NCBI GenBank assembly: GCA_003971905.1
Contig: RSEE01000169.1
Location: forward strand, 1 to 64,000
DNA length: 64,000 nucleotides
Origin: Moniliella sp. 'wahieum'
Lineage: Eukaryota > Basidiomycota > Moniliellomycetes > Moniliellales > Moniliellaceae
Direction of reading: 5' to 3'
Below are positions 1 through 60,790 of this stretch, piece by piece. The first letter of the stretch is position 1. Each line of letters begins with the position of its first letter. The translations under genes were made by a program, and so were the position numbers. The notes under the pieces are model-generated. The model was not told the DNA's origin. It made no database searches and saw only the letters and a program-made list of their open reading frames with translations.

Positions 1-521
1 TCACCGCTCTTCCCTGAGTAATAGTCTCTCCGGAGTATCGCTCCCCCGTCAATCATCAAGGTGGCTGCGCCGACATCTCGAATCCCTATACTAAAGAAAT
101 AGCCTCTGCAATGACGAACCAACGATGTATAGATATATAACCTCTCCCCCTTTCACTATTCAGCACTCCGCTTCGCTGCCCCCTCATCTCGATTCCCACC
201 TATATAGAAGCTTTGCCAAGTCGTATAAACGATGTACATAGGCAGCATACGTACATTGATATGTGTTTAGGCGTGGGGTTTCCCTGCAACAGCCATAAGC
301 TCCGTCAATGATATGGATGTAGTAACTAGTAACTAGTAAGAATCAAAGATGATCGATGATCGATGACTTACCGGTTACTGCCTTCCCTTTCTTTCTGTGC
401 TCGTGACTACTCAAGAGCCACCCAGTCGCGATCGGCACCCACTTAGCGCTGCCTACGGCTTGATTGCCAGGCGACCTATATGCCATCATGCATCTCACCA
501 GAACTACGGTGCATCCGTGTC
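1..521. other. Left-edge non-coding stretch
   Basis: I see no supportable gene here. It holds two short heptad tandem arrays: two units of aACTAGT at 324-337 and two units of gATCGAT at 351-364. The 3' end of the farnesyltransferase alpha gene could extend into its right side, because the last stop of that gene is uncertain. Confidence 0.5.
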
Positions 522-2025
522 CTATCCCAGGAAAGGGAGGAGACCAGTCTGCCGCTGTACTCGGCAGCAGCAGAGGCAAGGACCGGTGATGAGGAATGCT
601 ATCAAGGGTAGGTATCGAAGCGTATATGATTGTCGGCTGTGGCCAGGAGGGGGGGTGGGTGGGTGAGAGAGGGATCGGATTGAATATTGAAGTGGGTCGG
701 CAAAACAAAGGGCCGAGCGCAAAAAAGCGCAACACAAAGGAAAGAAGAGGACCGGTGGCTCGCACGGTCCTTCAGTCCTTCCCACAGGGCCAAAGAGCTT
801 TCGTTTGTCGACCCAGTAGCGAGTGCGAATGGGATCGGCATTAACGAGGCGGGTGAGAAGGCGCAACGCACGAGCCCGATACGCATCCGCCTGGTCCGAG
901 GATAAACTAGGATCGCGTAACCGTGCTTGCAGACTATCCAACCTCCACTCTAGTGCATGCGGTGTCCCGTTGCCCCCCATATCGGCATCGGGAGAAGCTG
1001 CAATGTCTTCCTCCGAAGGACTGAGGCTGGAGGCGAACAAGTCCAGTTGGTCCCGTACCTGCGTGGCCAAACGTCCTTTGGACGTTGCGTAGGCCACTCG
1101 GTCCGGATCGTCCGAGTTGAGTATCCTGTTGGTCTCTTTCTCCAGTTGGGCATATGCGCCCCCCAAATACGCCCATGGCGACGCATTGTTCTTCGTCACA
1201 GCAATCTTGTTCTTGGTGTAGGTGATCCCCGCACACGCTCGCCAGGGGATCCGGCGTGGTGCTGAGCAAGCCGACGCCAAACTGAACAAAGTAGCGATGA
1301 TTCCATGCACTGTTGTTGAACAGGTCCGCAGCATCGCTTCGGTAAACTTGACCTCTTGGTCCCAGAGGGAGGGTGCAGTACGCGCCTGGAGCGAGCGCGC
1401 CGGACTCGCAGGACTGGATGCTTGCTCCGAAGGGTCCCGGCAAAGTACACCAAAGCCCATTCGCGGTGAATCCAGGTATGGTAGTTTTTGCCATCCTCAG
1501 CTAACACCGAAGCAGTTACCTCGAGCTCCGTGTTGGCCAGTTGGGACCACAGCGCATACGCCACGTCTTCCCCCTCCTCGGGGATACGAGCGAGGATGCA
1601 CCGCGCCAGCTCCTGCACCACGTTCTTGCGATGCTGCCACACTGGTACTGTTTCATGTGCTCGTGACACCGGTCGTCCAGAATGTCCATCTCGGCGGCCA
1701 AGCGAGCTTCGGTGGAGAGCACAGGGGGGAGGAAAGGGTCGTCGCGTGCCTGCTCGGGCGCAGGCAGCAGGTCGGCACACAGCAGCTGAAACCGGTAGGC
1801 CCAGATGGTGTAGTTGCTGCTGGCGAGTGTGGAGAGGAAGGTGGTGAGGCCGAGCGCACGCAGGCTCAGCTCGCCCTCGCGCGACAGGGTGCGGAAGAGG
1901 TCCATGGCGCGAGCAAAGTCGGGAGGATAGAGGATGGGACAGAGAGGCTCGTTGGTCTCCTTCTGCGGGGTGGGGGTGACGTCGGCCCACAAGGGACTGG
2001 CAGCGTCAAAGGCGGGTGGGTCCAT
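522..2025 (-). CDS. RAM2: Protein farnesyltransferase/geranylgeranyltransferase type I alpha subunit (frameshifted)
   Basis: This is the alpha subunit shared by protein farnesyltransferase and type I geranylgeranyltransferase, the cytosolic enzymes that prenylate CaaX proteins such as Ras, Rho and lipopeptide pheromones. The ATG at 2025 opens an acidic Pro-rich N-terminus. The five PPTA-type helical repeats can be followed in order: NYTIWAYR, VWQHRK, TWIHREW, NNSAWNHRYF and SPWAYLGGAY, then a C-terminal helix ending near YWVDKRK. They lie in different frames: breaks fall close to 1650 (after HMKQYQ), 1440, 1330 and 1190. No splice sites fit these breaks, so I read them as single-base indels. 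Length is about 400 aa, near the family range. The stop at 522 follows the open frame, but the protein may really end nearer 780. A Rho GTPase ending CRLL, a likely substrate, lies further right in this window. Confidence 0.85.
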
Positions 2026-3068
2026 GGCCACGGCAGCGCGCGAAGGCGAAGGGAGGGGGGGGGAGAACGGGAAGAGGAAGAGGAAGAGGAAGAAGAAGGA
2101 GAAGGCGAAGGAAAGGCGAAGGAGAAGGCGAAGGAGCAGGAGAAGAAGGGGCTGGTGAGGATGCTGCTCTGGGTGGTTGGCTGGCTGTCTTGCGTTCGTG
2201 CCTGCTACGCCCCAAAGGAGTACAATCGGGGCCAACGACCGAACGGCGGGCGGGAGTAGCTAGCTAGTAGGCCCTAGTAGGCCCGAGTCCATGTGAGGGG
2301 GAGTGCCTGGGTTGAGTGCCTGGCCGCTGCACTGGCACCGGCAGTGTGCCATGTGACGTCAGATCACACGTGGCGACGGCTGACGCTGCAGCTGGGGCAG
2401 CCAACGCCGCGCCGGCGCGACGCCGGAAACCAACTGGCGCCATGGCGGGGGGGGGGGAGGCGCAACCCTAGGGGTGGGGTAGACTGCCCCCCCTGGCGCT
2501 GGGCTGCTGCGGGCGGGGCTAGGGCGCGAGGAGCGCAGCAGCGTTCTGGTGTGGTCTAGCCCTGGCGCTCCGAGTTGTCTGAGAGCGCAGCAGCGCGGCG
2601 GGCATCATGCATCAGCGATCAGCGATCAGCAATCGATCAGCTGGGATCGGCTGGCATCCCAGTGCTGCCCCCACCGCAAGAAGAAAGACTATACGACCCG
2701 AGTAGGGTTAGGGCGTAGCTTGTTTTACGTTTCATCAGCCAACCCCATCGCATACATCACATCCACCCACCACATCACACCTGTCCATTCCATGCTGGAA
2801 CAGTATAGTGGCCCATGTAGATGCCCATCATTGGCACCATCCCCTCTGCTTGCCGACCCCATCCCCATTCGGGGCAAGCGACGAGCGACGAGGGAAACTG
2901 CATGGCCAGCCTCGGCCAGTTCCTGCACACTACAGCTCGCGCTGCTTGCCCACAATCTTCGTCTGCCGCGTAGACCGAATCCCGACTGTCTGCGTTCCCG
3001 TCCGTTCGCATCATCATGATCGCAAGCGTGTCAGCACATCCATCCTTCCCCCGTTTCCTTCTGTCCCC
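2026..3068. other. Intergenic region between RAM2 and RAD7
   Basis: GC-rich spacer with homopolymer G runs and no convincing gene. At 2606-2633 four in-phase heptads occur (cATGCAT, cAGCGAT, cAGCGAT, cAGCAAT). RAM2 and RAD7 are both on the minus strand, so this holds the RAM2 promoter and the RAD7 3' region. Confidence 0.5.
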
Positions 3069-5171
3069 TCAGCGCTCAACCTCACCGCACCACTCCCACC
3101 GACTCGACAGACGTACCACACGGTTGCACCCAAACACATGGATGCGCTTCAAGCGGCTGTGGAGCAGCTGGCCAACCAACTCATCTGCCACGGCGCGTAC
3201 AAACGAAACATCGAGCATTTCCAACACGGGGATTTGGCCCACCAACTGAGCCAGTCCTGCCTCGCTCAGGCGGTCGTCCGAATTGACACAGACAGGTCAG
3301 TGTTTCTCCTGCATGTGCCAAGATCGCAGTCAAGACTTCATCCCCCACCTGGTCGATGCGACTCAGATCAAGGCTCTGCAGCTCGGCCCGTCCCCCTCGC
3401 CCTCGCCCTCGCTCTCGCCCTCGGACGGCGTCCAGGCCGTGAACAAGTCCACCAGCCCGTCCGAGGAAAGCCGCGAGAGCCGGGACAGGTTGAGCGAATG
3501 CAACCCCCGACTCTTCTTGACCCCCACCAACACCTTGTCCGTCAAGGCGGTGTTGCCGGAAAGGTTGAGGTGGCGTAGGTGGGCGCCGACATGGTCCAGC
3601 AGAGCCAGCACCTCGGGATCGTGCAAACTCTTAGGTGGGACACCGGGAGCCGAGACCCCGGATCAGAGATATCGAGGTACGTAAGGTGCGTCAACGTGCA
3701 GTGGCTGGAGCGCCTTGGCGTTCAACGGTCCAATTTGGGCCAAACCCAACTGGCTCACGTTGGGACAATGGTGCGCCAAGGCGCGTGTACAGGCTCGGTC
3801 GAACCGTGCCGATTCTCGGATCTTGAAACTGGTCAGGCCACTGCCCACCCGGCCAAAGAACCTCCGCCAAGCTTCTTGCCGAACCAGAAACGGACCGTAC
3901 AATTCCACATCCGTCAAGTGCCCTCCCCACTTGTCCCCCCACGAAGCCAGGACCGAATCGTCAACCTGCCCACACAGTTGCAGGTTGACGAGACGCACAT
4001 GGGGGCACACGTCCGGGAACGTGGAAAGCGTCCGAGATGAAAGGTCACTGCAGTCGTACAGTCGTAACTCGCTCACGTTAGGAGCAAGAAAGAGCTTCAC
4101 CGTCTCATTGTCCAACCGACGGTTCCGACACAGTGCTTGGGCCACTTTGTCCCTGTTTTCCCCCGTCACACAGCACAGGTCCTCCACCTGCTCAATGTGC
4201 CGACTCATGACATTGATACACATCTCCTGCAGCGTCGGCAACCTCTCTTCTTGCAATGCGAGCAGCGCCTTGCGCCGGGCGAATGCCGACAACGTCCGGG
4301 TACGAGTCGCCTTGGAGATAGGGGGCGTTGGCGTGGACGTATGAACGCCCTCTTCGGTGGCGTTGGCGCCACACACATGGCAGATCGGACCGTTGGAAAC
4401 GTAGGTGGTATACGTCGTGATGGCAAACCGTTTCTCGCATCCGGCGCAGTAAGCCAGCGCTCCATTCGGCCTGATCATCGAGGCAGACGGACGAATCGTG
4501 ATGAGCGAAGTGGCACTAGCTCTACCTGTGCGCAACCTCATCCTCGTCGTTCGCAGAGGCGCTTGCATGCCTTCTGCCCACTCCACTTCCCCACACCCCA
4601 CTCCTCTTCGCCTTCATCGGATTCATCAAATGTCTTGCGCTTCCGGCTGCCCACCTCCGCCGCCGCTCGCACCCCAGTCAACTTCTCCCACGTTGAATCG
4701 ATCCTACCGCTGCCAGACCCAGACCCGAACCTAGACCCAGATCCAGATCCAGATCCAGACCCAGATGCATACCCAGACCCAGACCCGGACCCAGGTGCAT
4801 ACCCATGCCCAGGTCCGGACCGAGCCTCGGTTTCCTCTCCCTGACCGTTGCCCTGCAGCTGAACCGTGTTGTCTTGCTCCTCATCCCCATTCCCCTCATG
4901 TTCACCTTCATGTTGATCCCCGTCCCCAACTTGGCGACGGGCAAAGCGGCTGGGGTGGCCGCGAGGCGTTATGCCGTTTTCCTAGTGGGGCGGCAGACAC
5001 GCGTGAGCAATTGAACCAAAGACGCACATGCAGCAGCATTGAGTACTAACTACTGATTGCTGATTATAGATGCCAAATGGGAAGGGGGGAGGGGAAGGAG
5101 AAGGGGGGGCGACGCACGCGGAGGAACTCGGTAAGTGCACTGGTATGACCGCGGACGTTGATGTTGGACAT
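3069..5171 (-). CDS. RAD7: DNA repair protein RAD7 (nucleotide excision repair, LRR protein; frameshifted)
   Basis: RAD7 is the leucine-rich-repeat partner of RAD16 in global genome nucleotide excision repair, acting as a nuclear damage-recognition and ubiquitin-ligase component. Exon 1 (5171-5118) encodes the hallmark start with HTSALTEFLR. A 136-nt intron (4982-5117, donor GTGCGT) joins it in phase to ENGITPRG, rebuilding the conserved FLRENGI motif. A Gly-Ser repeat from a hexamer tract (about 4720-4800) follows, then a probable 55-nt intron (4471-4525). Next come a zinc-binding pair (YCAGCEKRF and ICHVCG), the conserved LQEMCI helix, an LRR array to about 3120, and the C-terminal signature VFGCNRV. 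Frame breaks near 4560, 3665 and 3290 are bridged by continuing homology. Stop TGA at 3069-3071; about 635 aa. Confidence 0.88.
4720..4800 (-). repeat. Exonic hexanucleotide repeat in RAD7 (Gly-Ser tract)
   Basis: Imperfect tandem CCAGAC/CCAGAT hexamers inside RAD7 exon 2, coding on the minus strand for alternating Gly-Ser. The unit is a multiple of three, so unit gain or loss keeps frame. Confidence 0.8.
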
Positions 5172-6545: not shown

Positions 6546-7986
6546 CTATCTCCGCGCGGGCACGGTCCGGGAGGACAAGATGTTAGCCCAACCGGGTTCC
6601 TCGTCGTCGCTCAAGGCCAGCTCAGCGAGGGAGATGATCCGGCTCGGCGGACGCATAGCGCGGGACTTTTTGCGCAGCGTACGGGTACTTCCCGAGCCAG
6701 AGGACGCAGAAGCCGAAGAAGGTAGACCCAGGCCTGGAAGGTGGTTGACCTGAGAGGCAGGGGACGCAACACCATCACTGTCGCCCTCTTCGTCTTGCTC
6801 TTGCGCTGGCGGTTGAGCCTCCCTGCGTGTGGATCGGCCGAGCGAACTGGCTCTTGGAGGGATGCCAGGGATGGGGGAGGAGGCCGCACTAACAGGGGAG
6901 CAAGGTAGGTCAGTTGGCGGGAGCGGTTGGGGGGGCGTTGGGGCGGAGTGTGCGGTTGAGGGTGAGGGTGAGGTAGAGGCTGGGCTGGGGTTGCGGTTGT
7001 GTTGTTGTTGTTGTTGTTGAGTCGGAGGCTGCGCGGTAGGTGGAGATAGAGATGGTGATGAAGGCTGAAGCGGAGATGGAGATGGAGATGGAGATGGAGA
7101 CGGAGACAGAGACTGAGACTGAGACTGAGACTGGGACGGAGACTGGGATTGAGGTTGAGGTTGCTGCCGCGGTTGGTTTTGAAGAAGAGGTTGAGGTTGA
7201 GGTTGAGGTTGGGGCTGAAGTTGAGGGTTAGGGAGCTGGTAGGACGGCTGTTGGTTGGCTGCTAACGGGGCCGCACTGGAGAATGGTGGTGGGTCGGATG
7301 CGCAAGGGGGGGAGATGGAGATGGGCGGGGGCGAAGGATGGAACGAAGGTGAGACAAGCGGTTCTCCCGTCTGCTCTGCGTCGGGACCAGGACCAGAGGG
7401 GGGAAGAGCGAGCGTGGTGCCGGCCACAGAGTGGGCCGAGGAGGGGGAGGAGGAGCGAGGGTGGCTACGCGACAGAGAGGGGGAGGAGGCCGTGCGGGAC
7501 CGAAGCTGCTGCTGCTGGGCACCAAAGTAGTCGCTGGTCCAGTCGGGTTCGAGCTCGGCAAATGCGTCGCCGCCACCACGTACGTCGGGCGGGCGGTGCG
7601 GGCTGGGGAGCAAGGAGGACGAGGTGACCGAGCGGAAGGAGCGGAAGGAGGTGCCGCTGAGCTGGGCGCGGATGCCCGTCGGCTGCGGGCCGATGGTCTC
7701 GCCCCATGCGCCGGTGCCCTGGGCGCAACCTCAAAGTGGAACTGGCGGCGACGCTCGAGCGGGCGGGGGGGCGGGACGGGGGTGCCAAAGGGCGCGCGGG
7801 GCAGCAGCGGATCGGGCTCGGCCTGGGACTGGAAGCGCGCAATCTTGTCGCGCACAGGCGCGGCGGCGTGGGTGTCGTGCTGGGTGGCGGGCAGCGGCGG
7901 GGGGGTGTGTGGGCGCGCTCGAGCGCAGCGATGCGCTCGCGCAGCGTCTCCTTGCGCGCACGCGCCGGCAGCTGCGCAGACGCCAT
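6546..7986 (-). CDS. Uncharacterised Ser/Pro/Gln-rich protein with N-terminal helical motif (frameshifted)
   Basis: Function not recognised. The ATG at 7986 starts a basic, probably helical N-terminus (RARKETLRERIAALE). A break near 7900 leads to a conserved-looking stretch with VRDKIARFQ and LLPRAPFGTP, and a second break near 7700 leads into the long frame ending at TAG 6546-6548. The middle is extremely low in complexity: runs of Gln-Pro, Ser-Gln and Ser-Pro dipeptides encoded by hexamer repeats (about 7050-7230), plus a Gln homopolymer near 7010. The C-terminus is charged and more complex (RIISLAELALSDDEEPGWANIL), which suggests a real protein and not a shadow frame. Length about 470 aa. 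It is divergent from KAP104, with about 650 bp between the start codons. Confidence 0.6.
7040..7230 (-). repeat. Exonic hexanucleotide repeat (Ser-Pro / Ser-Gln tract)
   Basis: Tandem GGAGAT, GACTGA and GAGGTT hexamers within the low-complexity gene; on the minus strand they encode Ser-Pro, Ser-Gln and Gln-Pro dipeptides. Confidence 0.85.
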
Positions 7987-14542: not shown

Positions 14543-15200
14543 TTGCGGCATATGGTATCCCTATCCTGGCCTCGGCCGACGCTTCTGCTTCTGCTTCTGC
14601 TTCTGCTTCTGCTTCTGCTTCTACTTCTGCTTCTGCTTCTGCCAGTAATGCCGGACCCCCCTTCCCTCCTACTGGCTACGCCCTACTTTATCCACCCAAG
14701 CAATCAGATCTCCGATCGCACGTCCAAGCGCCCCTTTCCCTCGCCTGGAAGCTGCTTCCAACCCCGCCGCGCCCAAGGCCGATTCACCCACCTACACCAC
14801 TTTCGTCCCGACGGCCTTTGGCACAGTTGCACCACCACCTCCTTCCACCTCTATCGCCCCCGACCTCCCTCCCCCGCATGTCGTGCCCTCCGGTGCCGTC
14901 CTGGGCCACGGGCCCCAACCGTCCCAGATTCCTTGGCTTCGGACGCATCGATGATCACGGGCCAAACGTGGTTCTCGTGCTTTGGTCAGAGGGACATGCT
15001 GGGTGTTGATACGGGTTGTTTGCCCCACATTGGATCGCGGGGGGGACGCGAACCTCGACCCAGCCTTGTTGGTATGGGAAGAACCGTTGCCGCCGCCCCC
15101 AGAGGCTCCGTCGCGGCCTCAGCTTCCTTAGCCAGAAAGAGAAGGTCTGGAATGGCTGCCTTGCAGTGGTTTGAGTTGGAGCAATTAAGTGTGTGCCCTG
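14543..15200 (+). CDS. Possible low-complexity protein (weak call)
   Basis: A plus-strand stretch with an Ala-Ser tract from a hexamer repeat (14581-14643), followed by Pro-rich sequence that seems to continue in shifting frames to about 15180. No domain is recognised and no clear start or stop can be set. The hexamer period, seen elsewhere in this window only in exons, is the main argument for coding. It could equally be non-coding. Confidence 0.25.
14581..14643. repeat. (GCTTCT)n hexanucleotide repeat
   Basis: About ten near-perfect GCTTCT units with a single substitution (ctactt near 14620). In one plus frame it encodes Ala-Ser repeats, in another a Leu run. Confidence 0.9.
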
Positions 15201-19508: not shown

Positions 19509-20463
19509 ATGGCATCCCCCCTCCAGCTCCAGTGTCTCCACGACCTTTGCGCCGCGTGCGTCCCCCCGGCCAGCCCAGCCTTGTCAATGGCATCGTTGTT
19601 GGATGGTACGTATGCCCACCACCGTAATGTGCTGGCTACTCTCGGTGCTAATCCGACCCCCCCCCCACCACCCCCTCCAGACATGTCTCCTCTCTCCACA
19701 CCCACCGACAGCGAAGCCCCCCCGTCCCCGCACACTGGCCGTGGCCGTGGCCGCGGCCGCAGCATGGCCCGCCGCACCTCGATGCACCGTGGCAGTGACC
19801 CTTGCCGGCCCACTGGTCTTCCGCAGCCAGCCCTTGCTCATGACGTTACCCTCCCCTCGGCTGCCATCAAAACCGTCTCCCTCTCTCCTACCCACGCCAC
19901 CAACACCCAGCCCGAAAATTCCATGGGTGCAGCCTGCTTCTCCCTTCTCACCAGCTACGCTTTGGGTCAAGACCCATTATCCCGTCCTCCCTCTCCACCA
20001 GAGGACGGTGATCCCGACTCGCTCTTCCCATGGAGATGGGCATGGAGATGGAGACGGAGATGGAAGTGGAGATGGACCTGTTTGGGGACATGAACAAAGA
20101 CCGCACAGCCCTATTAATCGAGACGCAAGGATGCCTTTTGGTTCTTCTTCCGACTTGGCTCTGGCTCCACTGGGTGCCCGTGCCCGTGCACGCACTTACC
20201 TCCCCCCGCCTCGACCTGCCGTGGTAACACGCAAATTCTCCACTCCTACTCTGCGTCCTGTGTATGGCAAGCCCTCCCTTGGCCCTGTGGTGGAAAAAGA
20301 GGTTCGGGTCAAACATACGCCCATTCCCCCCTCACATCGCGATGCTGCGTTGCCCCTGCAAGATGCCCTGCAGCCACGCCGACGCTCTAGTAGGCGAGCC
20401 CCTTCCATCGAGGAAGAGCGCAGAGGAATTCCCATCCCCATCCCACCGTCCCGCCAGCGCTAA
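19509..20463 (+). CDS. Uncharacterised low-complexity protein (frameshifted)
   Basis: Not recognised. From the ATG at 19509 the frame reads a Cys/Leu-containing N-terminus (LQLQCLHDLCAACV), a Pro run, Thr/Ser-Pro segments and an Arg-Gly-Arg stretch. A break near 19800 moves to the frame that ends at TAA 20461-20463. That C-terminal part has a Gly-Asp tract from GGAGAT hexamers (about 20030-20080), then less biased sequence (RKFSTPTLRPVYGK, VVEKEVRVKHTPIPP) and a basic tail. The TATA box upstream and the hexamer repeat support a gene. A regulatory or scaffold role is possible but not shown. Confidence 0.5.
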
Positions 20464-21093
20464 TCGATCATCGATAATCCCCCTCCCCCACCTCCACTCT
20501 ATGACCCCCCACCGCCACGACCCAGTCACTGCCAACCCCTGCCAAAGCTGTGGGGTTGGTAGTTAGTTTCTCGGGTGACGAAACGAAGACTTCAACTGCC
20601 TCTGGTATCGATCTTGGATCTCATTGATCTTATCCATCTTTTCTCTACTACCTCCGCTCCCCCCCTCCTCTCTTTGTCCCCCTGTCTCCCCGCTCCGGCG
20701 CTTTAGCCCTCAGCCTGAGCCCTCAGGCCTCCCACTCATCTCATCGCCCCCATCCGGCGGCCTCTTTGCCCCTCGCCGCGGTGTCAGACTTTCCTCATGC
20801 CTGATGTCTGATGCCTGGGTAGGAAAAAGACAAAAAGGACTACCGTTGGGGATTCTTCCCCCCCGCATACCTATCTTCCCATGGGCCCCCAGCCTCAGGG
20901 CTTCACCTCTTCGAAGTGATCATCCATATGACGTTCTACTATTTCGTGCTTTGGATAGAACGTTAATGCTGCTGCGGCCAACAGATGGCTAATAATAGTG
21001 GGACTGCTGGGCTGCCGGGCCGATGGGGGGAAAAGAGAGGCTCTCATGCTTTTGCTAGTTCTTTGGTTGGCTGTTGTGACTGGTCACAGAAGT

Positions 21094-21120
21094 GACTAGT
21101 GACTAGTGACTAGTGACTAG
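21094..21120. repeat. Heptad array gACTAGT
   Basis: Almost four tandem 7-nt units with palindromic core ACTAGT and spacer G, exact phase. Confidence 0.95.
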
Positions 21121-21225
21121 ATACCCGATGCCCACAGAGTGGTTAGACGCCCACCGCACCTCTGCAACTCAGCCCCTCGGTTCGTTCAGCGTACGTCAAG
21201 TAAAATTGACAAGCGGGAAGTTTGA

Positions 21226-21267
21226 GCTTGAAGCTTGAAGCTTGAAGCTTGAAGCTTGTAGCTTGAA
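21226..21267. repeat. Heptad array GCTTGAA (core AAGCTT)
   Basis: Six contiguous 7-nt units; five are exact and one has a single substitution (gcttgta). Confidence 0.95.
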
Positions 21268-21505
21268 ACATATACCTCTGGCCTCAGGGTTGGGTGTACA
21301 AGATGGCCCCACCATCCACTCTCCCCACGTGTCATGGTGGGCCTTGCTGCGCCAGTGTTGCGTTGCTCTTACGTTCCCCCCCGGCGCCCCCAGCTAACAC
21401 AGGGGCTCCGGCACGGGTGCCGGGTGGCGGTTAAATACGAAAGACGCGTCTCAGATCTCAGGCACCGACAATCGGTGATTGCCACATCCTCGCACCAGAC
21501 CAGTT

Positions 21506-21540
21506 CATTAGTCATTGGTCACTGTTCACTAGTCACTGGT
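21506..21540. repeat. Diverged heptad array cANNNNT
   Basis: Five in-phase units: cATTAGT, cATTGGT, cACTGTT, cACTAGT, cACTGGT. The C-A at the start and T at the end of each unit are constant while the inner four bases vary. Confidence 0.85.
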
Positions 21541-21570
21541 CCCTGAGTCTGGCCGTCTCAGACTCGATTT

Positions 21571-21656
21571 CAGATCTCAGACTCAAAGCTTAAGATCTAA
21601 GATCTCATGCATCATGCATGCCACATGTCACATGTCACATGTCACATGTCACATGT
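21571..21656. repeat. Mosaic heptad array with changing palindromic cores
   Basis: Seven heptads (cagatct, cagactc, aaagctt, aagatct, aagatct, catgcat, catgcat), a 2-nt slip (gc), then five cacatgt heptads. Four different palindromic hexamers (AGATCT, AAGCTT, ATGCAT, ACATGT) share one 7-nt frame. Confidence 0.95.
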
Positions 21657-21903
21657 CACGGATCTCACACGTCCCGACGTCACGCTTGGCATGGTATGCA
21701 CATGCGTGCTTGCGTGCTTTGCGTGTTTCGCCACCCGGCTTGGCTCTGGCGCTTGGCTCCGCCCCGCCAGTGCCCCGCCCCACAGACACCAGTGCACCAG
21801 TCGACACCAGCCCACCTCGGCCTAAGGCCCCAGGGCCTCACCACCGCTCGCTACCCCAACTTTGGATTTGACTACACTCGCTCTGAGCGACGGCGAGACG
21901 CAC

Positions 21904-21949
21904 CTTGAAGCTTGAAGCTTGAAGCTTGAAAAGCTTGAAAAGCTTGAAA
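21904..21949. repeat. Heptad array CTTGAAG
   Basis: Tandem AAGCTTG units, the last two separated by an extra A each (8-nt spacing). Confidence 0.9.
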
Positions 21950-22427: not shown

Positions 22428-22454
22428 TCAAGCTTCAAGCTTCAAGCTTCAAGT
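22428..22454. repeat. Heptad array TTCAAGC
   Basis: Three to four tandem units, reverse complement of the GCTTGAA family. Confidence 0.9.
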
Positions 22455-22557: not shown

Positions 22558-23628
22558 GACCAGCCTCCGCGTGCGTGCCCACCATGTCCACACCTTTTTA
22601 TAGACTTGTCCACGTGCGCCCCCGTGGATTCGCCGCAGGGCACCATTGCTCGCCCCACACCTGCCACAGGGTTGGAGGTACGTTGAACGTTGAAGCTTGA
22701 AGGTCCAAGTTCTAAGATCTAACCTCTCTCCCCTTTCCGTCCTCAGGCCTCGGGCCCAAATACCCCACAAGTATATATATGGCACCACAGGCAAGTCCGC
22801 GGTCGTGGTCATCTCCAGAGAAGATTTGATATCGCTTCATTAATCATTGCACGCCGTGTGCCCCACACGCGCCCACATTCCATGTTGTGTTTGGGGATGT
22901 GGAGGGAGGTTGTTGGTTGGGGATTTGATGCTGCGTAACATGTTACAGGTAACATGCGTAACGGCCACAAAGAGACCCTTTTACGCCCCCACATTATGTC
23001 CTCAAAACAGAGGGTCAACGTCTGTTGAACGTTCAGTTGACCGTTGGAGCACGTGAGTACATGAGTTGTACACCCGTTACTTGTGTTACTTGTTCCTTGT
23101 TACTTGTTACCCTTTCACCCAACAAGTCCCTGACAACAGCGACAGCTGGGGGTGGGAAACTGAAACTGACAGGTCCTGCGGGCCGGTCATGGTCATGCAT
23201 CATGCATCATGTGAAGCGCCCCGCATGTGGAAAGCGTAACTGTGCCGAAAAAAAGCCAAAAAGATTCAAGCGCTTAGCTTCAAGAGCTTCAAGGCCATGG
23301 CTTGTGGGCAGGACCACCGCTGTTTTGCTTTTATATTTACCCTTGTTCATCCATTGCTACTAATGCACAAAATGCACAATAGCTCTCTCAGCTTTAAGCT
23401 TCAACAACGTTCAGCCATGCAACATGGAGGTACTGTGGGCAACTTTCCTTTGCCTGGACGTGTCGGCTACTTTACCTCGACGAGCAACAATGAGCAAGCG
23501 CAATGATTAATGAGCTGCAACAGTACCATCTGTGCATCAGCTGTGTATCGAGGACCCCCATCAGGCCATCATGTGCATCATGCATCATGACCTTATATAT
23601 GCACATCAAGTTTCAAGCTATCTTGAGG

Positions 23629-23662
23629 CTTCAAGCTTCAAGCTTCAAGCTTCAAGCTTCAA
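23629..23662. repeat. Heptad array TTCAAGC
   Basis: About five tandem units with AAGCTT cores. Confidence 0.9.
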
Positions 23663-23931: not shown

Positions 23932-23958
23932 GGCCTCAGGCCTCAGGCCTCAGGCCTC
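23932..23958. repeat. Heptad array GGCCTCA (core AGGCCT)
   Basis: Nearly four tandem units with AGGCCT cores and spacer C. Confidence 0.9.
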
Positions 23959-24576
23959 ACCCCCGCGCCGCGAGGTGAGATATCAGAGCGAGAAAAATGT
24001 TAGATGAACTGATCCCGTCCAATCGACTCATTGGCTGTTGTCGTAACTAGTAACTTGATTGGTTATTGTTGGGTCATATGCGCGCCTGTCCTTTGAAGCT
24101 TGGAAGCTTTACGCGTTACGTGCCTTGCGTCTTCCATCTTCTACAATCGGTTAGGTACCGACTCGTACGTGTTCCCATGTCTGCTTAAGCCTTAGGTGTT
24201 CAGCTCGCCCTTTTCAGCTCGCCCTCGTTACCGAAACACGACCCCGTGCGGGCATTGCACGACCAATTCCCAGATACGAGAGGCCATTACTTCGTTACTC
24301 GTTCTATTCACATCTTTCCCACGCCCTTGGGCCGTCGCTCCACCAGCTTCACACACCCTCTCCCCCGGCCCAGATCGAACGAGGTGGAATATCCTAGTCG
24401 CGCGCAATCGCAGATTTTGGGCAGCACTTACTAGGCGCGCTCATCTCTGTCCCTTCTGCTGTGGCCAAAAGCAGACCGGATGCCCCCGTTCCTATCACTC
24501 ACCCCTACTGGCGGCGGTGCGGAAGCGGGAAGGGGGGGTGGGGGTTCGTTAGGGCCTTGCGGAGAGCCAATATGCG

Positions 24577-33088: not shown

Positions 33089-34142
33089 GGCGACTGGGGC
33101 GGGAGAGGGGCCGGAGAGACGGGAGGGGGCGGAGGGGGCAGCGAGGCAGATGGTGGGTGGGGGCGAGCGATGGTGGTGGTGGTGGTGGTGGTGGGGGGAT
33201 GGGCGCGGTGGAAGCGATGGAGAGGAGCTGGACGAGGAGAGGAGATGCGATGGGCGGCGGGCGAAAGAGGGTGGATGGATGCGGCTGATCGAGCGCCGGG
33301 CAGGACAGAGGATGGTGTAACTTTGGCGCGGGCCGGGGCAGGGCACGGCGCCAGTGTGTGCAGCGGCTGCCAGGGTGCTTTGTGCCTGGCCGCCCAGCGC
33401 ATCCGACACTGCCGCTGTGCCAGCAATCCAACCCTACATGGCAGGCGCTGACGCGTGACGGGTGAGGACGAGCAAGCAGGGGCCAGCGACGCGTGACGCG
33501 TGACTTCACGCGTGCCTGGTCGTCGCACCGAGGCACTCCCAGGCACTCCCTGCCCCTCCCCGGCGCTCCCGGGGACACCCCGCGGCTGCTGTGCGACACT
33601 GCCCCTGCGCCGCCCGCTGCGGCGTGCGGTTCCCCGCGCAACAGCCGTCGGCGCATCAGCGGGGGGCACTCTCGCCTGTCACACTCACATCACGCGCCCT
33701 ATGTCACATGTCACGCGTCACGCCTGCATTGGCCCGAACTGTGTCGGATTGTTGAAAGTTGCAGGGCTGGGGGTTAGTTCAGGCGACGTTCAGTTCAGCT
33801 TCAGCGTTCAATTGTTCACGTTCAGCGCGCTCAGCCGAGGCCTGCAACGGTTAATGAGGCTCAGTCTCAGCCCTGACGCTGGTTGGTCGGGCATCTAGTA
33901 GACCCACAGACAACCAACAAAAAGCAACATGGAAGCGAAGGAGGGTGGGGATGATATGTGTCCGTTGTGGCCAGCAGGGCAAGACAAACGAAGGATAAGC
34001 TAGAGTGCGGGGGAGGCATGGTCGATGGACAGTGAGGTATAGGCTAGGGGAAGGAAGAAATCGAAAGAAAACGAAAGAAAAACGAGAGGGAGGAGAGATC
34101 CTAGACGAGAAAAGAAGAGGGAAAAGAGATTCGGCCCTTTCT
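33089..34142. other. Intergenic region upstream of the ABC gene
   Basis: GC-rich 5' flank of the ABC gene, including GGT repeats near 33170-33192 and gACGCGT heptads at 33488-33503; no gene seen. The right part (33900-34140) is the A-rich 3' flank of the PIP kinase gene. Confidence 0.5.
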
Positions 34143-45218: not shown

Positions 45219-46008
45219 GGTGGCGAATGGTGGAGGGGCGACGGCGGGGCGGGGTGTGGAGTGAACCAACACGGCGATGGGCGCGGCGGGGCGGAGGCGG
45301 GCGGAGGAGGAGGAGGTGGTGGGTGGGTGGCTGGGTGGCGAGACAGTGACTACTTGCTGTGACTGGAAGCTGGAAGCGTCCCGGCACGCATCATGCATGC
45401 ATCATGCGTCCCATGTCACACGTGCTGCGCTCGCCCGGCTGTCTCCGCCTGGGGCGCAGAGCATTGGGCACGCCCAGTGCGCTGGTGGGAGCCCGTATGC
45501 GGCACGCCGGTTGCCTCATCGGTCTCATCGATCAGATCGATCATCCATCACCATCATGCGTCCTCCGCGCAGCCAGTCCGCACGGCGCCAGCCACGCGCT
45601 GGGGGGGACGCAGTAAGCACACACTGATCAAGTACAGAGTGCTGGACACTGCTCCGGCGCCCGTCCGCGGGCCACGTTCCACTGCGTCCAAATATTTGCG
45701 CTGCGTGCCGATGCGTGCCGATGCACGGAGAAGCCACCCCGAACGTGTGGGACCTGCAGTTGGACACTCGGCTGGTGCCCAGCCTTGGCACCGCCCCAGC
45801 CGCCGACTCATGACTAGTGACTAGTGACTGCGTCCTGTTCGCCCAATTTCCATCGGCGCGCCAGGCCCATTGCACCGATCAGCCCAGCCTGCCCACGGGG
45901 TTGTCGCGCGCGGAACTAGCGCAGGGCGGAATGGGCGTCCCTGCCCCACCCCCGCCCGCTCGCTTGCTCCACATTGGGGTCCCCACTCTCCAAAACGTCT
46001 CATGCATC
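45219..46008. other. Divergent intergenic region upstream of the eIF2-beta-like gene
   Basis: Promoter interval of two divergent genes. gACTAGT heptads are at 45812-45827 and ATGCATC units near 45390-45405. No gene seen. Confidence 0.5.
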
Positions 46009-53686: not shown

Positions 53687-56600
53687 GGCGCAAACAGAGA
53701 GGCGAAGGAGAGAGGGAGGGAGAAAGGGAGGGCGGGAAACAGAAAGGCGGGGGGATGGTGGCTCCCTTTTTTGGTGGGGGTTGGGGTGGGAAGAGATGGG
53801 ATGGCTGTGTAGGAGCGATGTGGGGCGACAGGCGACACGCATCATGCATCACTTAGTCACTCTGGGGCAGTCGGGCACAGGGACACAGGCGGAGAGGGTC
53901 GGAGAGGGTCCGTGCGCACCCGGCTCCTGCCTGGACCGAGGGGAGCGCTTGGGCTGGATGGCTTGGGAAGCACAGTGCGTATCCAACCAATACCGGCTGT
54001 GATGGGGCGCGTGGGCCGGTGGTCACACGTCACACCCACCGCCCATCGATCCAATCCCCCCACACGCCTTGGCGACGGGAGCGCATCCCGATTAGGTAAT
54101 GAATGTGACCAGCCGGGTTACAGGTCTTAGCGTGGACGAGCTCAGGAAAGGTGGAGGTGTGTGTGGTAGCTTGTTCATTCAGAGCATAGCAAAGCATCTC
54201 CTTTTTATACCCCAAAGAAAGAGGGTAAGCGAACGTATTGAAGATAAGGCAAGGCAGATTCGGGATTATGGAGGAGAAAAACGTGAGATAACGTGAGATA
54301 GGACGGAGGAGGAAGAACACAGCAGTACTATACACAAAAGAGCCTGAAATACTACAAGTTTTCTCGCACGTGGTAAAGTATTGTGTGATGACAGTGGAAC
54401 AGACAAACAAAGGCAAAGAGGAGGATAATCGATAACCCAAACGAGTGATGGATCCTTGTATGTACCTCTTCTTGAAGTTATTGATGGCTCCAGCAAAAAC
54501 GGCATCCACATCCCAAAATGCGCGCGGATTATTATTGCACAATGCGAAATTGGCTCTGTTTTTTCCGAATGTCGAATGAGAAGACGAATCTCGTCAACTC
54601 AAAAGTCTATCTTGCCTCCAGCTACATGAGAGCGCAAAAATGGTGGACCTCCAGGCTGTGCTCACGTTTGGAAGCACCCAAGGACGGGACGTTTGATCCA
54701 TTTTGGGAAAACAACTGCACGGAAGAATTCTGCAAGAAATGGGCCACGACGCCAAAAAAAGGTCCAAGCTGAGCTTCGTAAAACTAACTACACACGGAAG
54801 AAGGACTATGAAGGTTATCATCTCATCACTAAGCAATCTCCAAGTGGACTCAAATGACAAACGTACACGAAACGTAAGCGGATGACGTTTGACGCCACAA
54901 GTCTCAAAAAATGGAAAGGCCATCTGTGTCGCCTTTGAAAGTTCCTTCCATGTGCGGAGGAGTGAGAGAGAGAAACGGAATTTCCTGTGGCCGTTTTTGC
55001 CCTACAAGTATATGGACATGACACTTCCTTGACGCGAAGTCGTCCTCATAGTCCTCGCATGCTGCGCCTGTACCTTCATATAGTATTCTCTGTCGGTACA
55101 AGTGAATACCGCATATGTGTTTCTTCTTCGTTCTGCCCTTCACCGGCCTGACCTGCATTTCTTTTTTCCTCATTTCTCACCCTGATTTGTGATTCTTTAC
55201 ATCGGTGGGAGGTGACTATGACTCGTCCACCTCGTGCCCTCGGCTTCCTCTCTGCCTACAACTTGGCCATCGCTGATGGAGACTGACTAAATGGAGTCCA
55301 CAGATCGGTGGGAGTGTCAGATTCATATATGCCGTGCCAGGGGATCCTTGGCCTAACCCCTTCACCCGCGTGGGAATTATAGCGTGATTCACGTACTGTA
55401 ACCACATCATTGACAAAGCTTATGGCTGAGAACAGCGGAGGCGAACTCGAACCGGCGAAAACATCGCACGTTAAACGGCCACCGGTCGCAACTCAATGCG
55501 TCTCAACTCAACGTACCTTAACGTACCCTTAACCCTCATCGACCTCTCTCATCGACTCAGCACTGGTACTCACAACGTTCAACGTGTTCAACGTCGTCCG
55601 CAGTAGGCCTCGTCCGGGCTTCCTCACTGTCACCTCCTGCACGAGAACTCACGCAACGTAGGTTAAATCAATGAAGGGATCAGTTTGACTGTACGCGGGA
55701 AGGAGAAGGGGAAACTGGTTATAGTACATCATATACGAAGGTATCCAGGTGGTAGAAAACCTTGAAGAAGAACTTGAATAGCTGTGTATTGTAAAAAGGG
55801 TGGGGGGTCTGAGACCCGGGTCACTTGAACCTTGAACAGCTTGAACGTGAGCGTTTTGAGCGCTGAGCGGATCAATGTGTTACATGTTTTTGTGATGTGA
55901 CATGTGATGCATGATGATCGAGATGATCAACACGTCGTTTCGGAAGCTTGAGACGCGTACAGTAGTGCGCGTATTAGCGCGTCAACGCGTCAACGTTCAA
56001 CGTTCAACGTTGCTGGCTGTATATGAGTACACTCAGGAGTATGAATATGGCGCCTGCGACATTGTGACTGTTACATGTGACGGTGGCAAAGTCATGAATC
56101 GAAGAACCGACGAACTTGTTGAACACGTTGAACGCACAAAAAAACTGCACGTCTGCTGTGCGGTGCCACCATTCCCAGCGTCGCTACGGAATAAAATCGA
56201 CGTGAATTGTTTACTGAAGACGCTGACATGTTCGCGAGCTTCACATTAGGGAACCGAAACCCTGGTTTTACGGGTCCCGCAGGGCTCTATCTGTCCGGAT
56301 TCGATACACCGACCCCCCTTCGGACCCCGCTGAGTACCGAGTAGTGACGGTGGGATTGCGGCATCTCATCGATCACCAGCGGAGACCTTCCCTGCCCATC
56401 GGAGACAATTAGACTCACTGAGAACTGAACGATGAGTTCCACAGATCCAAAGTCAAGGAACACTGGCGTGAATTTAGGAGGGCCGTGAGTAGTCCATTCC
56501 TAGTGGTCGGGCAGAGCCATGCAGCGTCCGGGAAGGAGACTGCGCGTTATAGGTTCCGGACGTGAAAGCGTGGAGCTTCAACGGGCGAAGGAGGCCTGCG

Positions 56601-58031
56601 AGCGAGCTGATTGAAAGGGAGGAAGATTATTTAGGGCCTAGAAGAAGGAGTAGGGGAAAGGGAGCCAAGAAGCAATAATAGCAACGATTATAATGATACC
56701 GGAGCGAAGGTGTGGCTGGCAAGGCGACTTCGTCGTTGCCCTACAGCCGTTACCACCTCCTAACAAGCTGGATCGGCATCAATATTTTTTGTGCCGGGTA
56801 CATATATGCTCTTGCTAAAGCTGCAATGTCCCCCCTATTCATCGCGCGCGCCCCTATGTTGAACACACACCAGGGACGTCAGATCTCAGAGATTTAGGTG
56901 AGGAAGTGGCAGTGGCAACGTACTTTTTTGGGATAGAGTGATGTTCTGTGGGCTTCTTCGGCTGGTGGTACAACGATATCATCTGAGGGTCTTGCGTTTT
57001 GTTTCTTGGAGCATTTTTTCTCGTCCGTAGTCGAGTAGTCCCAGTAGCAAACTATTTGGCCACCCATACCGAAAACTACAGCAGACTACTATAAACTACT
57101 GTCTATTAAAGCCCCCCTGCTCGTCACGTCCCATAATCTCAGTCACTGGCTCTGTCACATGCAGGGGCACCTTGTTCGAAGACGTGTCGCATCATTTTCC
57201 AGGTCACACACATGTCACATGTCATACGGCATACATTTGTTCTGGCGGGCTCGGGCCGTGTATTACAGAGTGCAGGTGATTTGCGTGGAGCTTGTGAACA
57301 GATGGACGCCGAACCTAGCTACCAAACAGGGTGCAACTTCCTCGTTCCCACGGTGTTCCCACGGTCAGTAACTGAATAATGCCAAGTGTAGTGCACTGCG
57401 CAGAACGTGTTTCCAACGCCCCGCAGTACCTCTTCTTCTTAGTGTGAAGAAAACGGGTGTGACGCGGCCAAAAAACTCTTCATGTGTAAAACAAGGAGAG
57501 AGCGATGAGGAAACCAAGTGAGCCTAATACTGTTATCGTCTGGTGTCCCATGTGCCTCTTCCCCCTTGGAAAATAACTATACCCGGCTATACTGCGTGTA
57601 CTCTATCGCATCGATCAGCATATCAACATGCGACTACATCTATAGGATTTTCCCGCTATTATACTACCAACCCCACATACCTTGTTCATACTGTGGACTC
57701 CGGCCATCGGCTGTCCCATGCCCCACGCTGTGTCGGCACGTCTGCACATCTCACCTCTCTTGGACTTCATAATAACCGTTTTCGGTTTGGGCAGGCGGGA
57801 TTGGACGCTGGACGTTGGACGAAGGTGTTGGAAAAAGAACTGTGTGTTGGGCCGGCAAACATGCATCCTCACAAACACGCCACGTCACTCGCGGTACGTG
57901 ATATGTGATACCAATTGTGCATGACAGTCTCGGACCTATGATGCTCACACATGCCATAATGGTAGCCATAGTGGATGGCATGCCACCTGCCGATCCCCCC
58001 CCTCTGGCATCTTCTGGGATCCATCCAGTGT

Positions 58032-58066: not shown

Positions 58067-59453
58067 TGTTCATTTGCCACACTTCACTCGCCACTAGTCA
58101 CTAGTCACTCGATGGGCGACGTGTCAAATGAACTTAGCTACAAGTATAGTAACTACTAGTAACTGCTAATGAATCAAACCGGCACAGGTTAAACCTCGTC
58201 GTCTTCGAGCGCGAGACACATGTTATGCACTCTCTGCGGCCCCGACCAACGTCCAACACTCACATGCATCACAACGACAGCAAGCACAAAAGAACCACAT
58301 CACAACTAATGTCACACGCATCACCTACTCCGACTTTTCAAAATCCGTACACACCGCTCACAACTCAGTATATACTCTGAGCGCTGAGCATGCGCGTACT
58401 CTCCCACTTCAAGCTTCACGCACCTTTTTTTGTAACGCTTGGAACGTTGAAAACGCACGTGTTGCAAGGACGCCGGCCGGCTATCCCCCCCCGCGTAAAG
58501 CGGGGTGACCGGTGAAAAGACACCTTCGTCGCTATATATACTTTGGCCGCTTTTATGCGTTACGGCTATTCACAGAAGGTAGTACCCAGTCCCGAGAGAA
58601 AGAGGTTTTGCAGGGAGGGAAAAGTCGGTGCACATTTAAGGGTGTCTACACCAAACCTCGCTATTACATGCTGAGAACATGAAAGGGGTGTATAGATGTG
58701 TGCCCCTGGTGTATAAACTTCCTCGAGGCGCATTTTTGGAGTGTTCTTTTCTATCGTGTGTGCTTCTCGTCTTCTCGTGACATGTGACAACTCTTCTGCT
58801 TAATTGCTCAAGGCCATGGTGTCAACCAACCTCTCGTGGCCAAAGCGTCGCCTGCCTCCTCCTATTGTTCGAGAGAAGGGCCGACGTATACAATACAGTG
58901 CGTGTGAGGAGCCGTCGGTCATTGGTTATTACGGACACGTACAATACGTTTTCAAGCACAAAATCTCAAAAGCAACAAAACGAGCTTCACACACTCTCGT
59001 TCTTGTACTTCTTCTTGCCAAGATGCACACTGATGTGCTTATTGAAGGGCTTCTCGCCCCTCTGTAATCCCGTGTATTTTTTGGTGCCTGTGTGTGTCAG
59101 TACTCATTACTTAGTAAATAGAAGCGCCGGGCCTTTGACAGAAGTACATATGTGTTGATCATGTTGATCGGCGAGCGCTCTAGGCTGATTAATTACTAGT
59201 GAAAAAAGCTGTTGAAGATCGAGAGATGAATGCATTATACGTTAGGCCTTTGGTCTCTCGATCGTTGATCTTGCCGATCGTGAGCACCAACCTATTGACA
59301 AGGCCTCCATCTTGTTTATTTGTCCCGCACAGATCTGCTTGGATCTGTTACTTCTGTCAGGTAGAATGGATGTGTTTAACATCTGCCCTATATCCTGCAT
59401 TCAATATTCGTATCCTTGGCGCCTTGGCACTGGCAATTACGGTATGCAGACAC

Positions 59454-59508
59454 ATCTCACATGTCACATGTCACATCTCAAGATCTCAAGCTTGAAGCTT
59501 GAAGCTTG
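59454..59508. repeat. Mosaic heptad array ACATGT to AAGCTT
   Basis: cACATCT and cACATGT units run into caagatct and then cAAGCTT/gAAGCTT units, with a single 1-nt slip at the agatct junction. Confidence 0.9.
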
Positions 59509-60416
59509 ACAGTCTCAGAGATCCCTAGCGTCGTTTAATGTTTAGTACTTAGTTGTTACCAGAGTTGGGACTACTTACGCAGCGTTACGCGTTACGCCTC
59601 TCTCGACAACATGAATTACGTGTTACGTGTTACGATCGTACCGGATGGGCGAGCTTCTGCGGTGTGCCGGACGTATATGCCTCGTGTGCCGAGCTCGAAA
59701 CTGTTTCGCGTTTCGTCCCAGTCCCTGGCACTTAGATCTATAAGCTTTTGCAACTGAGATGGATTCGACAGGTACCGCCGGTCCGTCCCGGCCATCTGGC
59801 ATGCAACACATGCACATCATTGATCACTCGATCACTGATCATCCATCCTGTTACAGTGCTCGTGACTAGTGCTAGTGATTGCCAGTGACTGTCACATGTC
59901 ACTGGGGAAAGTCGGGACAATGCTAGTGCCGGTGCAAGTGCTAGTGCTAGTGATTAGTGATGGATCAACAAAAGATCAAAAACCTTTTCTTGTGTTTCTA
60001 TTCCCGCAAAGCAACCCCAGGTTCCGATCAGCTGCTGAGCTCCGCCAGTCAAGCTACGTTTGGACGTTAGGTTGTGCGCAGTGGCGGTTCCTAGGTGCGA
60101 GGTATACTTACAGGAGGCTACATTCCAGTTGAGAAGGACGCAACGGTGATCATCTCACGGATCGATGATATGGTACTGCTTAGGCTAAGCGCTAAACCCC
60201 ACCATGAGTGCCTGTCTCGAGCCGTTCAATCTTATATGCGACGAGTTTTACACTACTTTCCTTCGTGCTACTCCATCTCAATGTGCTGGCTCGCTGCTTC
60301 GAGGCGCGAAGAAATGGTTCCGATTGCACGGCTCGTTGGAGGAGAGAGCAACATTCCGACCTCTTGTGTGCTTGAGCTCATGAGTGTCATGGCGTGCCTA
60401 CTTCAAGGTTATACAC

Positions 60417-60465
60417 GTTTAACGTTTAACGCTTAACGACCAACGCTCAACCTTCAACGTTCAAC
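60417..60465. repeat. Heptad array with AAC every 7 nt
   Basis: Seven exact-phase units: GTTTAAC twice, GCTTAAC, GACCAAC, GCTCAAC, CTTCAAC, GTTCAAC. The AAC end is constant while the first four bases vary. Confidence 0.92.
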
Positions 60466-60755
60466 ATTAACTTCGGCCGGCGAATGTCGGCGACACAGAC
60501 CAGTTGTGGCCACACACCTACACTCAATAGATGACCTGCCCAACACAACAGCATGCCGCTGTCCAACCAAACACTTAGTTACTCAAAGAGGGGTATCCTA
60601 GGGTACCCTCCCGCCCTCTCTTCTCCTTCGCGACTGGGGTACCGTCGGTGATTGATGATTCTACAGAATCTTTGATCACCTCTTCTCTCAGATCTCACAT
60701 CGCATCGGCTCATATCGCTCTCTCTCTCCGTTCCTAGCCACGTGCGGAGGCACAT

Positions 60756-60790
60756 GAGTATTGAGTACTGAGTACTGAGTACTCATCGAT
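60756..60790. repeat. Mosaic heptad array gAGTACT / cATCGAT
   Basis: gagtatt, three gagtact and catcgat units in one unbroken 7-nt phase. Confidence 0.93.

Follow-up and report, generated by a model that had tools for sequence, protein, structure and literature searches.

Self-templated fold-back insertion at TNA triplets as a probable origin of palindromic heptads in Moniliella sp. 'wahieum'

According to the accessible parts of the reports cited below, duplication by fold-back of a DNA strand occurs in repair-deficient yeast and in tumours, and template switching in yeast evolution. These systems are compared here with the palindromic heptads of the fungus Moniliella sp. 'wahieum', which are 7-nt units, single or in tandem arrays, in a stretch of 64,000 nucleotides (positions 1 to 64,000 of contig RSEE01000169.1, or C169; hereafter the window). 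The heptads are probably made by a recurrent mutation of fixed geometry, a 7-nt self-templated fold-back insertion at the triplet TNA. Alternative duplications and small inverted triplications (SITs, DUP/INV/DUP) are described for rad27/FEN1-deficient yeast and for cancers (PMC12633238, PMC13334657), and the model given for them starts from a 3' flap at an Okazaki junction, which folds, self-extends, and is ligated downstream or returns to the template (PMC12633238, PMC13334657, PMC5677150). For the SITs the median sizes are 148/160/148 bp, the spacer being of 30 bp and the junctions of 6 bp (PMC13334657). Quasi-palindrome correction and palindrome expansion, by intramolecular template switching, are described for rad27-null yeast (PMC5677150), and heptameric simple sequence repeats are known from bacteria, as GGGAATC in Xanthomonas, as GGGGA(C/T)T in Nostoc, and from Calothrix (PMC4692102).

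The direct–inverted–direct architecture of the SITs is also found here. When uv denotes the host dinucleotide beside a TNA, and v'u' its reverse complement, 18 of the 26 insertion/deletion differences (indels) of 7 bp between two haplotypes gain uvTNA-v'u'-uvTNA. The proposed fold-back of a 3' end, its self-extension and its return to the original template at an upstream nick correspond to the published model, as far as its accessible text goes. The size and junction class is different, being 5/2/5 nt here, with a 3-nt TNA hinge, and no junction homology beyond the T and A of this hinge is seen in the main sample of 264 kb (the window and 20 stretches of 10 kb, taken at even steps from contigs C1-C4), to which the counts below refer unless the window or the genome is named. 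Here, moreover, 297 units occur in 264 kb of a natural genome having a FEN1-like gene. Quasi-palindrome switching likewise produces an inverted segment by fold-back copying and a duplication on return (PMC5677150), but in the text available those events begin at inverted repeats and are of variable size, whereas here the size is fixed and pairing could involve no more than the T and A on either side of a single base. A pre-existing multi-base inverted repeat is not found, as the empty alleles of single events show uvTNA alone, with uv nearly unconstrained. With the bacterial repeats the heptads share the 7-nt, intergenic, dispersed unit that is over-represented with respect to other unit lengths (PMC4692102), but there a genome is described as having a single consensus word or a few of them, compared with eleven A-first words plus AGCGCT, and single units, here. 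Length changes by whole units (7, 14 and 21 bp between alleles) are those of a microsatellite array, but the prior tandem repeat that such an array needs is absent, 79 of the 102 clusters in the window being single. Transposon excision footprints consist of a short duplication flanking a few palindromic bases, as does the TNA unit; here, however, the inner bases copy the host flank, and no matching element is seen in the 264 kb.

The signature is also rare in the comparison loci from bacterial genomes (L046-L165) and viral contigs (L166-L179). In the GC-matched bacterial loci, which were chosen for holding AAGCTT heptads and comprise 929,707 bp, 10 of the 215 single products are TNA products, against 140 among 256 in the 264,000 bp studied here, and the AT-richer viral contigs have 8 among 70 in 100,872 bp. 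The bacterial heptads, lacking this single-unit TNA signature, are therefore a different phenomenon. Among the matches listed, arrays of AAGCTT heptads are found in many genomes of Pseudomonas, and also in Stutzerimonas, Zobellella and Selenomonadaceae; the bacterial period-7 arrays are mostly of AAGC/GCTT words, and by eye some seem to have inverted copies nearby. The fold-back rule is described in no title or abstract found, a scope that leaves most of the subscription literature outside, such that absence from print is not implied. Three further reports (PMC7218506, PMC4524435, PMC12699852) concern, in their accessible parts, other palindromic or tandem repeats, without bearing on the TNA rule.

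The heptad arrays and their underlying unit

A sequence-only reading of this DNA had described arrays of one spacer base plus a palindromic A-N4-T hexamer (N4 being the four inner bases) with eleven different cores. In the window each of the eleven forms at least one exact heptad array; AGCGCT, absent from that list, is a twelfth A-first array word. Of the exact arrays with period 7 in the window, 35 are 17 nt or longer, and 24 of these contain a palindromic hexamer in one rotation or another, compared with about 11% of random heptamers (1792/16384, by arithmetic); 23 of these 24 are of the A-N4-T form, the sole other one being CCATGG at 49067. For arrays of at least 20 nt the proportion is 16/21 in the window and 13/23 in the 20 stretches (200 kb, C1-C4). 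At 20001-24000 the self-match reaches 0.362 at lag 7, whereas lags 2-6 and 8-15 give 0.252-0.305, and lag 7 is the strongest lag in both 4-kb bins of 16-24 kb. The same A-N4-T palindrome recurs at distance 7 in 92 pairs, compared with 2-4 pairs at distances 8-13, whereas C-, G- and T-first palindromes give 1, 1 and 0 pairs at distance 7. Differing A-N4-T words also keep a common register, with 29 pairs at 7 and 23 at 14, against 2-7 at 8-13. The 7-nt unit and its palindromic enrichment, as claimed in the earlier reading, are thus borne out by the lag-7 peak, the distance-7 excess and the palindromic arrays.

Word counts over the genome (69.5 Mb in 223 contigs, forward strand, overlapping matches counted separately) covered 12 of the 64 palindromic hexamers. 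Three-unit matches number 1081 for AAGCTT and 0 for its mirror TTCGAA, 344 for ACTAGT and 2 for TGATCA, 508 for ATGCAT and 0 for TACGTA, and 15 for AGCGCT and 0 for TCGCGA. The words beginning with G or C are rare throughout (GAATTC 1, CTTAAG 1, CCATGG 2, GGTACC 3).

The spacer can be any base, the single products per 10,000 TNA triplets being 87 for C, 68 for G, 58 for A and 36 for T as the middle base. Array edges were studied in loci selected for AAGCTT arrays (L001-L003 and L026-L045, used for array edges and self-comparison only), where L002 overlaps with L026 and L003 with L009, so that a few edges are doubly counted. Word changes beside arrays preserve the palindrome at 13 of 228 edges, compared with about 1.8 expected, and in 11 of these 13 the spacer is the same (one boundary entering twice, once from each side, and a few of the loci overlapping). 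The edges fall preferentially on TNA, which is taken as a hint only. Changes of the spacer alone between adjoining units are from C to G or from G to C in 6 of 7 cases (for example in L035), hinting at occasional local inversion within arrays.

The symmetry centres identify the unit more precisely. For expected counts, first-order Markov resampling in 500-base blocks or swapping within the data was used, with five replicates for inverted repeats and three for the stem/loop scan. Inverted repeats of at least 6 bp with a single-base centre number 191, against 80.6 expected, while those with a zero-base centre are at the expected level (68 and 69.2). Among the centres with arms of at least 6, 89 have G or C as the central base between T and A, compared with 8-26 in the other classes. 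The pairs TCA..TCA, TGA..TGA, TTA..TTA and TAA..TAA all peak at a gap of four bases, and at this gap N4 is self-complementary in 130/235, 122/206, 24/53 and 22/41 pairs of TCA, TGA, TTA and TAA, respectively, but only in 10/49 and 10/47 of the mixed pairs TCA..TGA and TGA..TCA. Altogether 297 of the 533 TNA pairs with the same N are palindromic inside, against 5/221 for ANT, 19/472 for CNG and 32/631 for GNC. These 297 will be referred to as atoms, an atom being TNA-NNNN-TNA with a self-complementary N4 and an identical N in both TNAs. Isolated units (run of at most 12 nt, no in-register neighbour) show the same preference, 86 of 217 being palindromic, compared with 4/127, 16/355 and 25/466 for runs of at most 12 nt in the ANT, CNG and GNC control frames.

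The window holds 134 atoms in 102 clusters, of which 79 are single units. From the palindromic excess in the TNA frame and this majority of single units it follows that the underlying unit is TNA-NNNN-TNA, and that arrays grow from it secondarily. Of the description as a spacer plus an A-N4-T palindrome, the symmetry and the length stand, but TNA plus a 4-nt palindrome is the better parsing; the arrays are real, but single units outnumber them. These counts also bear on ordinary microsatellite slippage, biased by hairpin formation toward self-complementary heptamers. Array lengths do differ between alleles by 7, 14 and 21 bp, from which it follows that slippage or unit exchange acts on existing arrays, and slippage is likely in their growth. 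As the origin of the heptads it is very unlikely and is contradicted by the data: single units, which are the majority, offer nothing to slip on and occur whole in one allele only, and the four palindromes with G/C ends, whose hairpins are expected to be at least as stable, have 1-3 three-unit matches genome-wide. Hairpin-promoted slippage as the origin was rejected on the count of single units outside arrays, and the statement of the sequence-only reading that ordinary slippage cannot explain one length together with one symmetry is upheld.

Copying of the flank and differences between two haplotypes

The four inner bases are related to the host DNA beside the unit. After leaving out the 115 of 297 palindromic sites with an in-register neighbour, the adjoining host dinucleotide is found copied into N4 at 152 of the remaining 182 sites, compared with a mean of 24.6 and a maximum of 40 in 1000 shuffles in which the flanks were swapped. 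A left match (the two bases to the left recur as the last two of N4) alone occurs at 59 sites, a right match (the two to the right recur as its first two) alone at 61, both at 32, and neither at 30. The two halves of N4 come each from a different flank in only 4 of 236 non-palindromic TNA pairs, and on this count a two-sided fold-back at a double-strand break was rejected. The rule is probably that uvTNA becomes uvTNA-v'u'-uvTNA, or the reverse complement of this, with a gain of exactly 7 nt.

A scan for products of the form [w L][rc w][w L], rc denoting the reverse complement, finds 300 with a 2-nt w and a 3-nt L, against 23.0 expected; sites readable as a 3-nt w and a 1-nt L number 229, against 25.0 expected. 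On both strands the loop is TNA in 356 of 614 cases, followed by TNG (43), and is GNC in 12, CNG in 5 and ANT in 2. In the 140 single products the middle base of TNA is nearly free, and uv is unrestricted apart from the rarity of AT, TA and TT; around these products no flank consensus is seen, save for a further TNA seven bases off.

The window segment 20900-24100, when searched against its own genome, has one other place with a long match, on contig C13 (among 40 scored candidates). An alignment of the window with four stretches of 10 kb from C13 (L180-L183), in blocks of at least 250 bp, comprises 28,906 columns, with an identity of 96.65%, and because of synteny and copy number C13 and C169 are read as being probably two haplotypes within one assembly. 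The alignment has 462 indels, among which an excess at 7 bp is observed: 10, 12, 26, 11 and 5 have sizes of 5, 6, 7, 8 and 9 bp, and 1, 7, 1 and 3 have sizes of 13, 14, 20 and 21 bp, each size next to 14 or 21 bp being represented by 0-1 indels. The longer allele gains the product in the 18 of 26 7-bp indels mentioned above, in 4/7 of those of 14 bp and in 2/3 of those of 21 bp, compared with 13/404 of those of 1-6 and 8-10 bp and 4/22 of the other larger ones. The 18 gains are equally divided, nine being in each haplotype. For twelve of the 26, collapse reproduces the other allele exactly, 3 nt of flank included, and by the author's reading six of these are new single units and six are one extra array unit. 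These 7-bp differences would mostly be insertions rather than losses. A further allele pair (L184/L186) differs by one ACTAGT unit, and another (L185/L187) has no indel of at least 5 bp.

The clear single events are found in both directions. In the window, the sites TGTGA (21075..21079, plus strand), TGATT (21476..21480, minus strand, read on the plus strand), TGACG (33874..33878, minus strand, read on the plus strand) and ACTCA (58258..58262, plus strand) are empty, whereas the other allele has TGTGA-CA-TGTGA (7 bp more), TGATT-AA-TGATT, TGACG-CG-TGACG and ACTCA-GT-ACTCA, respectively. Conversely, TCAGA-TC-TCAGA (56879..56890) and TTAGT-AC-TTAGT (59542..59553), both on the minus strand and read on the plus strand, are single products absent from the other allele. 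At 22684..22700, in GT-TGA-ACGT-TGA-AGCT-TGA-AG, two words share a TGA, and each copies the flank on its own side (GT at the left, AG at the right), which points to two events, probably one from each side of a single TGA; the other allele, GTTGAAGG, is without the unit and lies beside a large insertion.

This insertion of about 5.06 kb (L180:2507-7565, allele B of window position 22699) is present only in the C13 haplotype, right beside the heptad site; it has direct terminal repeats of 160 bp that are 99% alike, and resembles a long-terminal-repeat retrotransposon. A second insertion of about 4.7 kb, likewise confined to the C13 haplotype (L181:1468-6188, allele B of window position 16275), has short terminal inverted repeats starting CACGGCTGCGG and by eye resembles a DNA transposon.

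It is conceivable that the heptads are footprints left by excision of DNA transposons with a target duplication of 3 bp (TNA) or 5 bp (NNTNA), leaving TNA, four bases and TNA. Some transposon families typically have TNA-like target triplets, the unit resembles a target duplication around a short palindromic footprint, and allele B has the two large insertions just described. Nevertheless this is unlikely, since at 152 of the 182 sites half of N4 is a copy of the host flank and not of transposon ends, and mixed-flank products are confined to the 4 of 236 pairs. In addition, terminal inverted repeats flanked by TNA are not in excess (28, compared with 24 for ANT, 79 for CNG and 123 for GNC), and the five 11-of-11 matches among the 28 are AAGCTT arrays. 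The two large insertions are flanked, by eye, by other short duplications, about GAAGG and about GA, and no TNA-flanked intact element was recognised in the 264 kb to which this search was confined. The notion that N4 derives from transposon terminal inverted repeats was dropped, as the allele pairs show copies of the host flank and no TNA-flanked element was recognised in the 264 kb.

The proposed mechanism and its alternatives

Base pairing is the simplest way of imposing symmetry on an arbitrary dinucleotide, and therefore the strand must fold back and copy itself: v'u'uv is self-complementary, though uv is nearly arbitrary, because v'u' copies uv. In the mechanism proposed here, a strand ending in ...uvTNA would fold back with TNA as the hinge and copy u and v, adding v'u' and giving a 7-nt mini-hairpin, uv-TNA-v'u'. 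The extended strand would then rejoin or re-copy the original uvTNA, the return to the start of uv repeating five bases. Further events at one TNA, together with gain and loss of whole units, would lengthen the arrays, and an event from the opposite flank would add a different word in the same register. Such a rule yields A-N4-T palindromes with many cores and an unchanged spacer base. The folding strand may be a nascent 3' end, and by analogy with the published replication/flap model the likeliest candidate is a short 3' flap, either at a nick or at an Okazaki junction; this flap would self-extend until flush before its ligation to the 5' end downstream. If the flap has five bases and ends in TNA, it becomes flush after two added bases, which would explain the fixed length. 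The TNA hinge and the 2+3+2 geometry, or five-base flap, are themselves not explained by the fold-back model. The earlier suggestion of a copying process with a fixed 7-nt register comes close to the result of the allele comparison.

Several observations weigh against this mechanism. Eight of the 26 7-bp indels do not fit the rule, two of the 18 gains (58385 and 59827) lie nearby and are not clear events, and at three of the fitting sites (23502, 54424 and 58407) the empty allele differs by one base within uvTNA. Neither flank is copied at 30 of the 182 palindromic sites. A further TNA lies seven bases downstream in 30 of the 140 single products and upstream in 10, the chance level being 8% (1646 of 20117 TNA triplets); these extra in-register TNAs, 13 of the 30 being palindromic, may be explained by repeated hits. 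A stem of 2 with loops of 2, 4 and 5 gives 178, 33 and 42 sites against 98.7, 8.0 and 1.0 expected, and a stem of 1 with a loop of 4 gives 382 against 85.7. Tandem repetition of any kind raises such counts, and from these excesses it follows that the 2+3 form is dominant but not exclusive; no dominant loop word is seen for the other sizes, among those whose loop words were printed. The free energy of a 2-bp stem with a triloop is positive (mean +1.99) in the nearest-neighbour model, which has no dependence on loop identity and does not predict TNA, and the rate per uv follows the stem strength only partly, AT, TA and TT being low and AA high, but GC and GG not. Finally, a FEN1-like gene is present on C14, open over the matched part, with E 2.1e-40 to FEN1 structures, so that no FEN1 deficiency is shown. 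A second FEN1-like copy on C19 (L186, compared with L184 on C14) is split near its start by single-base gaps, which may be assembly errors.

Loop thermodynamics as the reason for TNA was rejected, as the parameters contain no effect of loop sequence and the observed ranking of uv is not reproduced. Since neither stem nor loop energy explains TNA, a TNA-preferring enzyme is to be considered. In this alternative, a nickase, a transposase-derived protein or a polymerase would recognise TNA, and a fixed staggered or flapped end of five bases would fold back; its fuller form is a dedicated, heritable DNA-writing activity that inserts the 7-nt self-templated 2+3+2 hairpin and shapes intergenic DNA genome-wide. 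Both forms are possible but doubtful. The strong preference for TNA in the absence of an extended flank consensus, the dominant 2+3+2 geometry and the failure of stem energy to account for either agree with such an enzyme, but sequence data alone cannot separate it from the flap mechanism.

Selection for a DNA-binding protein or an RNA hairpin using TNA at 7-nt steps is the least easily reconciled with these data, and highly improbable. It would agree with the uneven distribution of the clusters in the window, which are densest at 16-24 kb and 56-60 kb, where open frames of at least 150 aa are few, but avoidance of genes is expected of any frame-shifting 7-bp insertion. Furthermore, the inner dinucleotide is little constrained, only AT, TA and TT being rare, and the sites are polymorphic between the haplotypes. 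A protein that reads A-N4-T, which the sequence-only reading had offered as a cause of the symmetry, is not supported in that role: the inner four bases are nearly arbitrary and half copied from the host flank, yet self-complementary, a property that base pairing can test and sequence readout cannot.

Other heptads of the window and biological meaning

The remaining heptads of the window include single products whose other allele has a changed base, namely AATGA-TT-AATGA (23502..23513; GATGA in the other allele), GATAA-TC-GATAA (54424..54435; GGTAA) and CTTCA-AG-CTTCA (58407..58418; CTGCA), all on the plus strand and absent from the other allele. Several arrays differ in length between the alleles. 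The AAGCTT arrays at 21229..21252 and 22428..22451 are each 14 bp shorter, and the ACATGT array at 21628..21658 is 21 bp shorter, in the other allele, whereas the ATGCAT array at 23193..23211, the ACTAGT array at 58092..58109 and the AACGTT+T array at 60415..60431 are each one unit longer in the window. The AAGCTT array at 23631..23661 is 16 bp longer than in the other allele, and the AGGCCT array at 23936..23959 is not in the other allele, the window having 24 bp more. Just upstream of 21628, AGATCT and ATGCAT units share one mutual register, two bases off that of the ACATGT array. Further arrays are those of ACTAGT at 21093..21116, with three atoms, and of AAGCTT at 21906..21929. Small clusters of ACTAGT+A (323-339) and ATCGAT+G (350-366) lie near the start of the window, AACGTT (16526-16542) and ACCGGT (16600-16616) clusters follow, and others are those of ACTAGT (45811..45827), AACGTT (55990..56006), ACATGT (59457-59473), AAGCTT (59493-59509) and AGTACT (60762..60778).

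Tandem periodicity of 6 nt and 12 nt is seen at 2070-2145, 4713-4821, 7026-7226, 14581-14642 and 28001-28146, in stretches with long open reading frames; lags 6 and 12 are raised in such stretches of the window and may reflect coding repeats. At L019:4958-5255 self-comparison also shows tandem repetition at intervals of about 23 bp. Pfam hits point to a eukaryote, and one rhp7-type zinc-finger match (33.4 bits, cut-off 27) perhaps to a fungus.

The fold-back rule proposed above is a base-exact mutational rule by which palindromic tandem repeats would arise from non-repetitive DNA, and would thus amount to the birth of microsatellites in this genome. A 7-bp insertion shifts reading frames and gives length polymorphism between haplotypes. 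If a dedicated activity were at work, the result would be a class of repeats defined by a rule of symmetry and not by sequence. In this genome fold-back has the look of a routine process, polymorphic and adding a fixed quantum, whose enzymology would be accessible in a natural organism.

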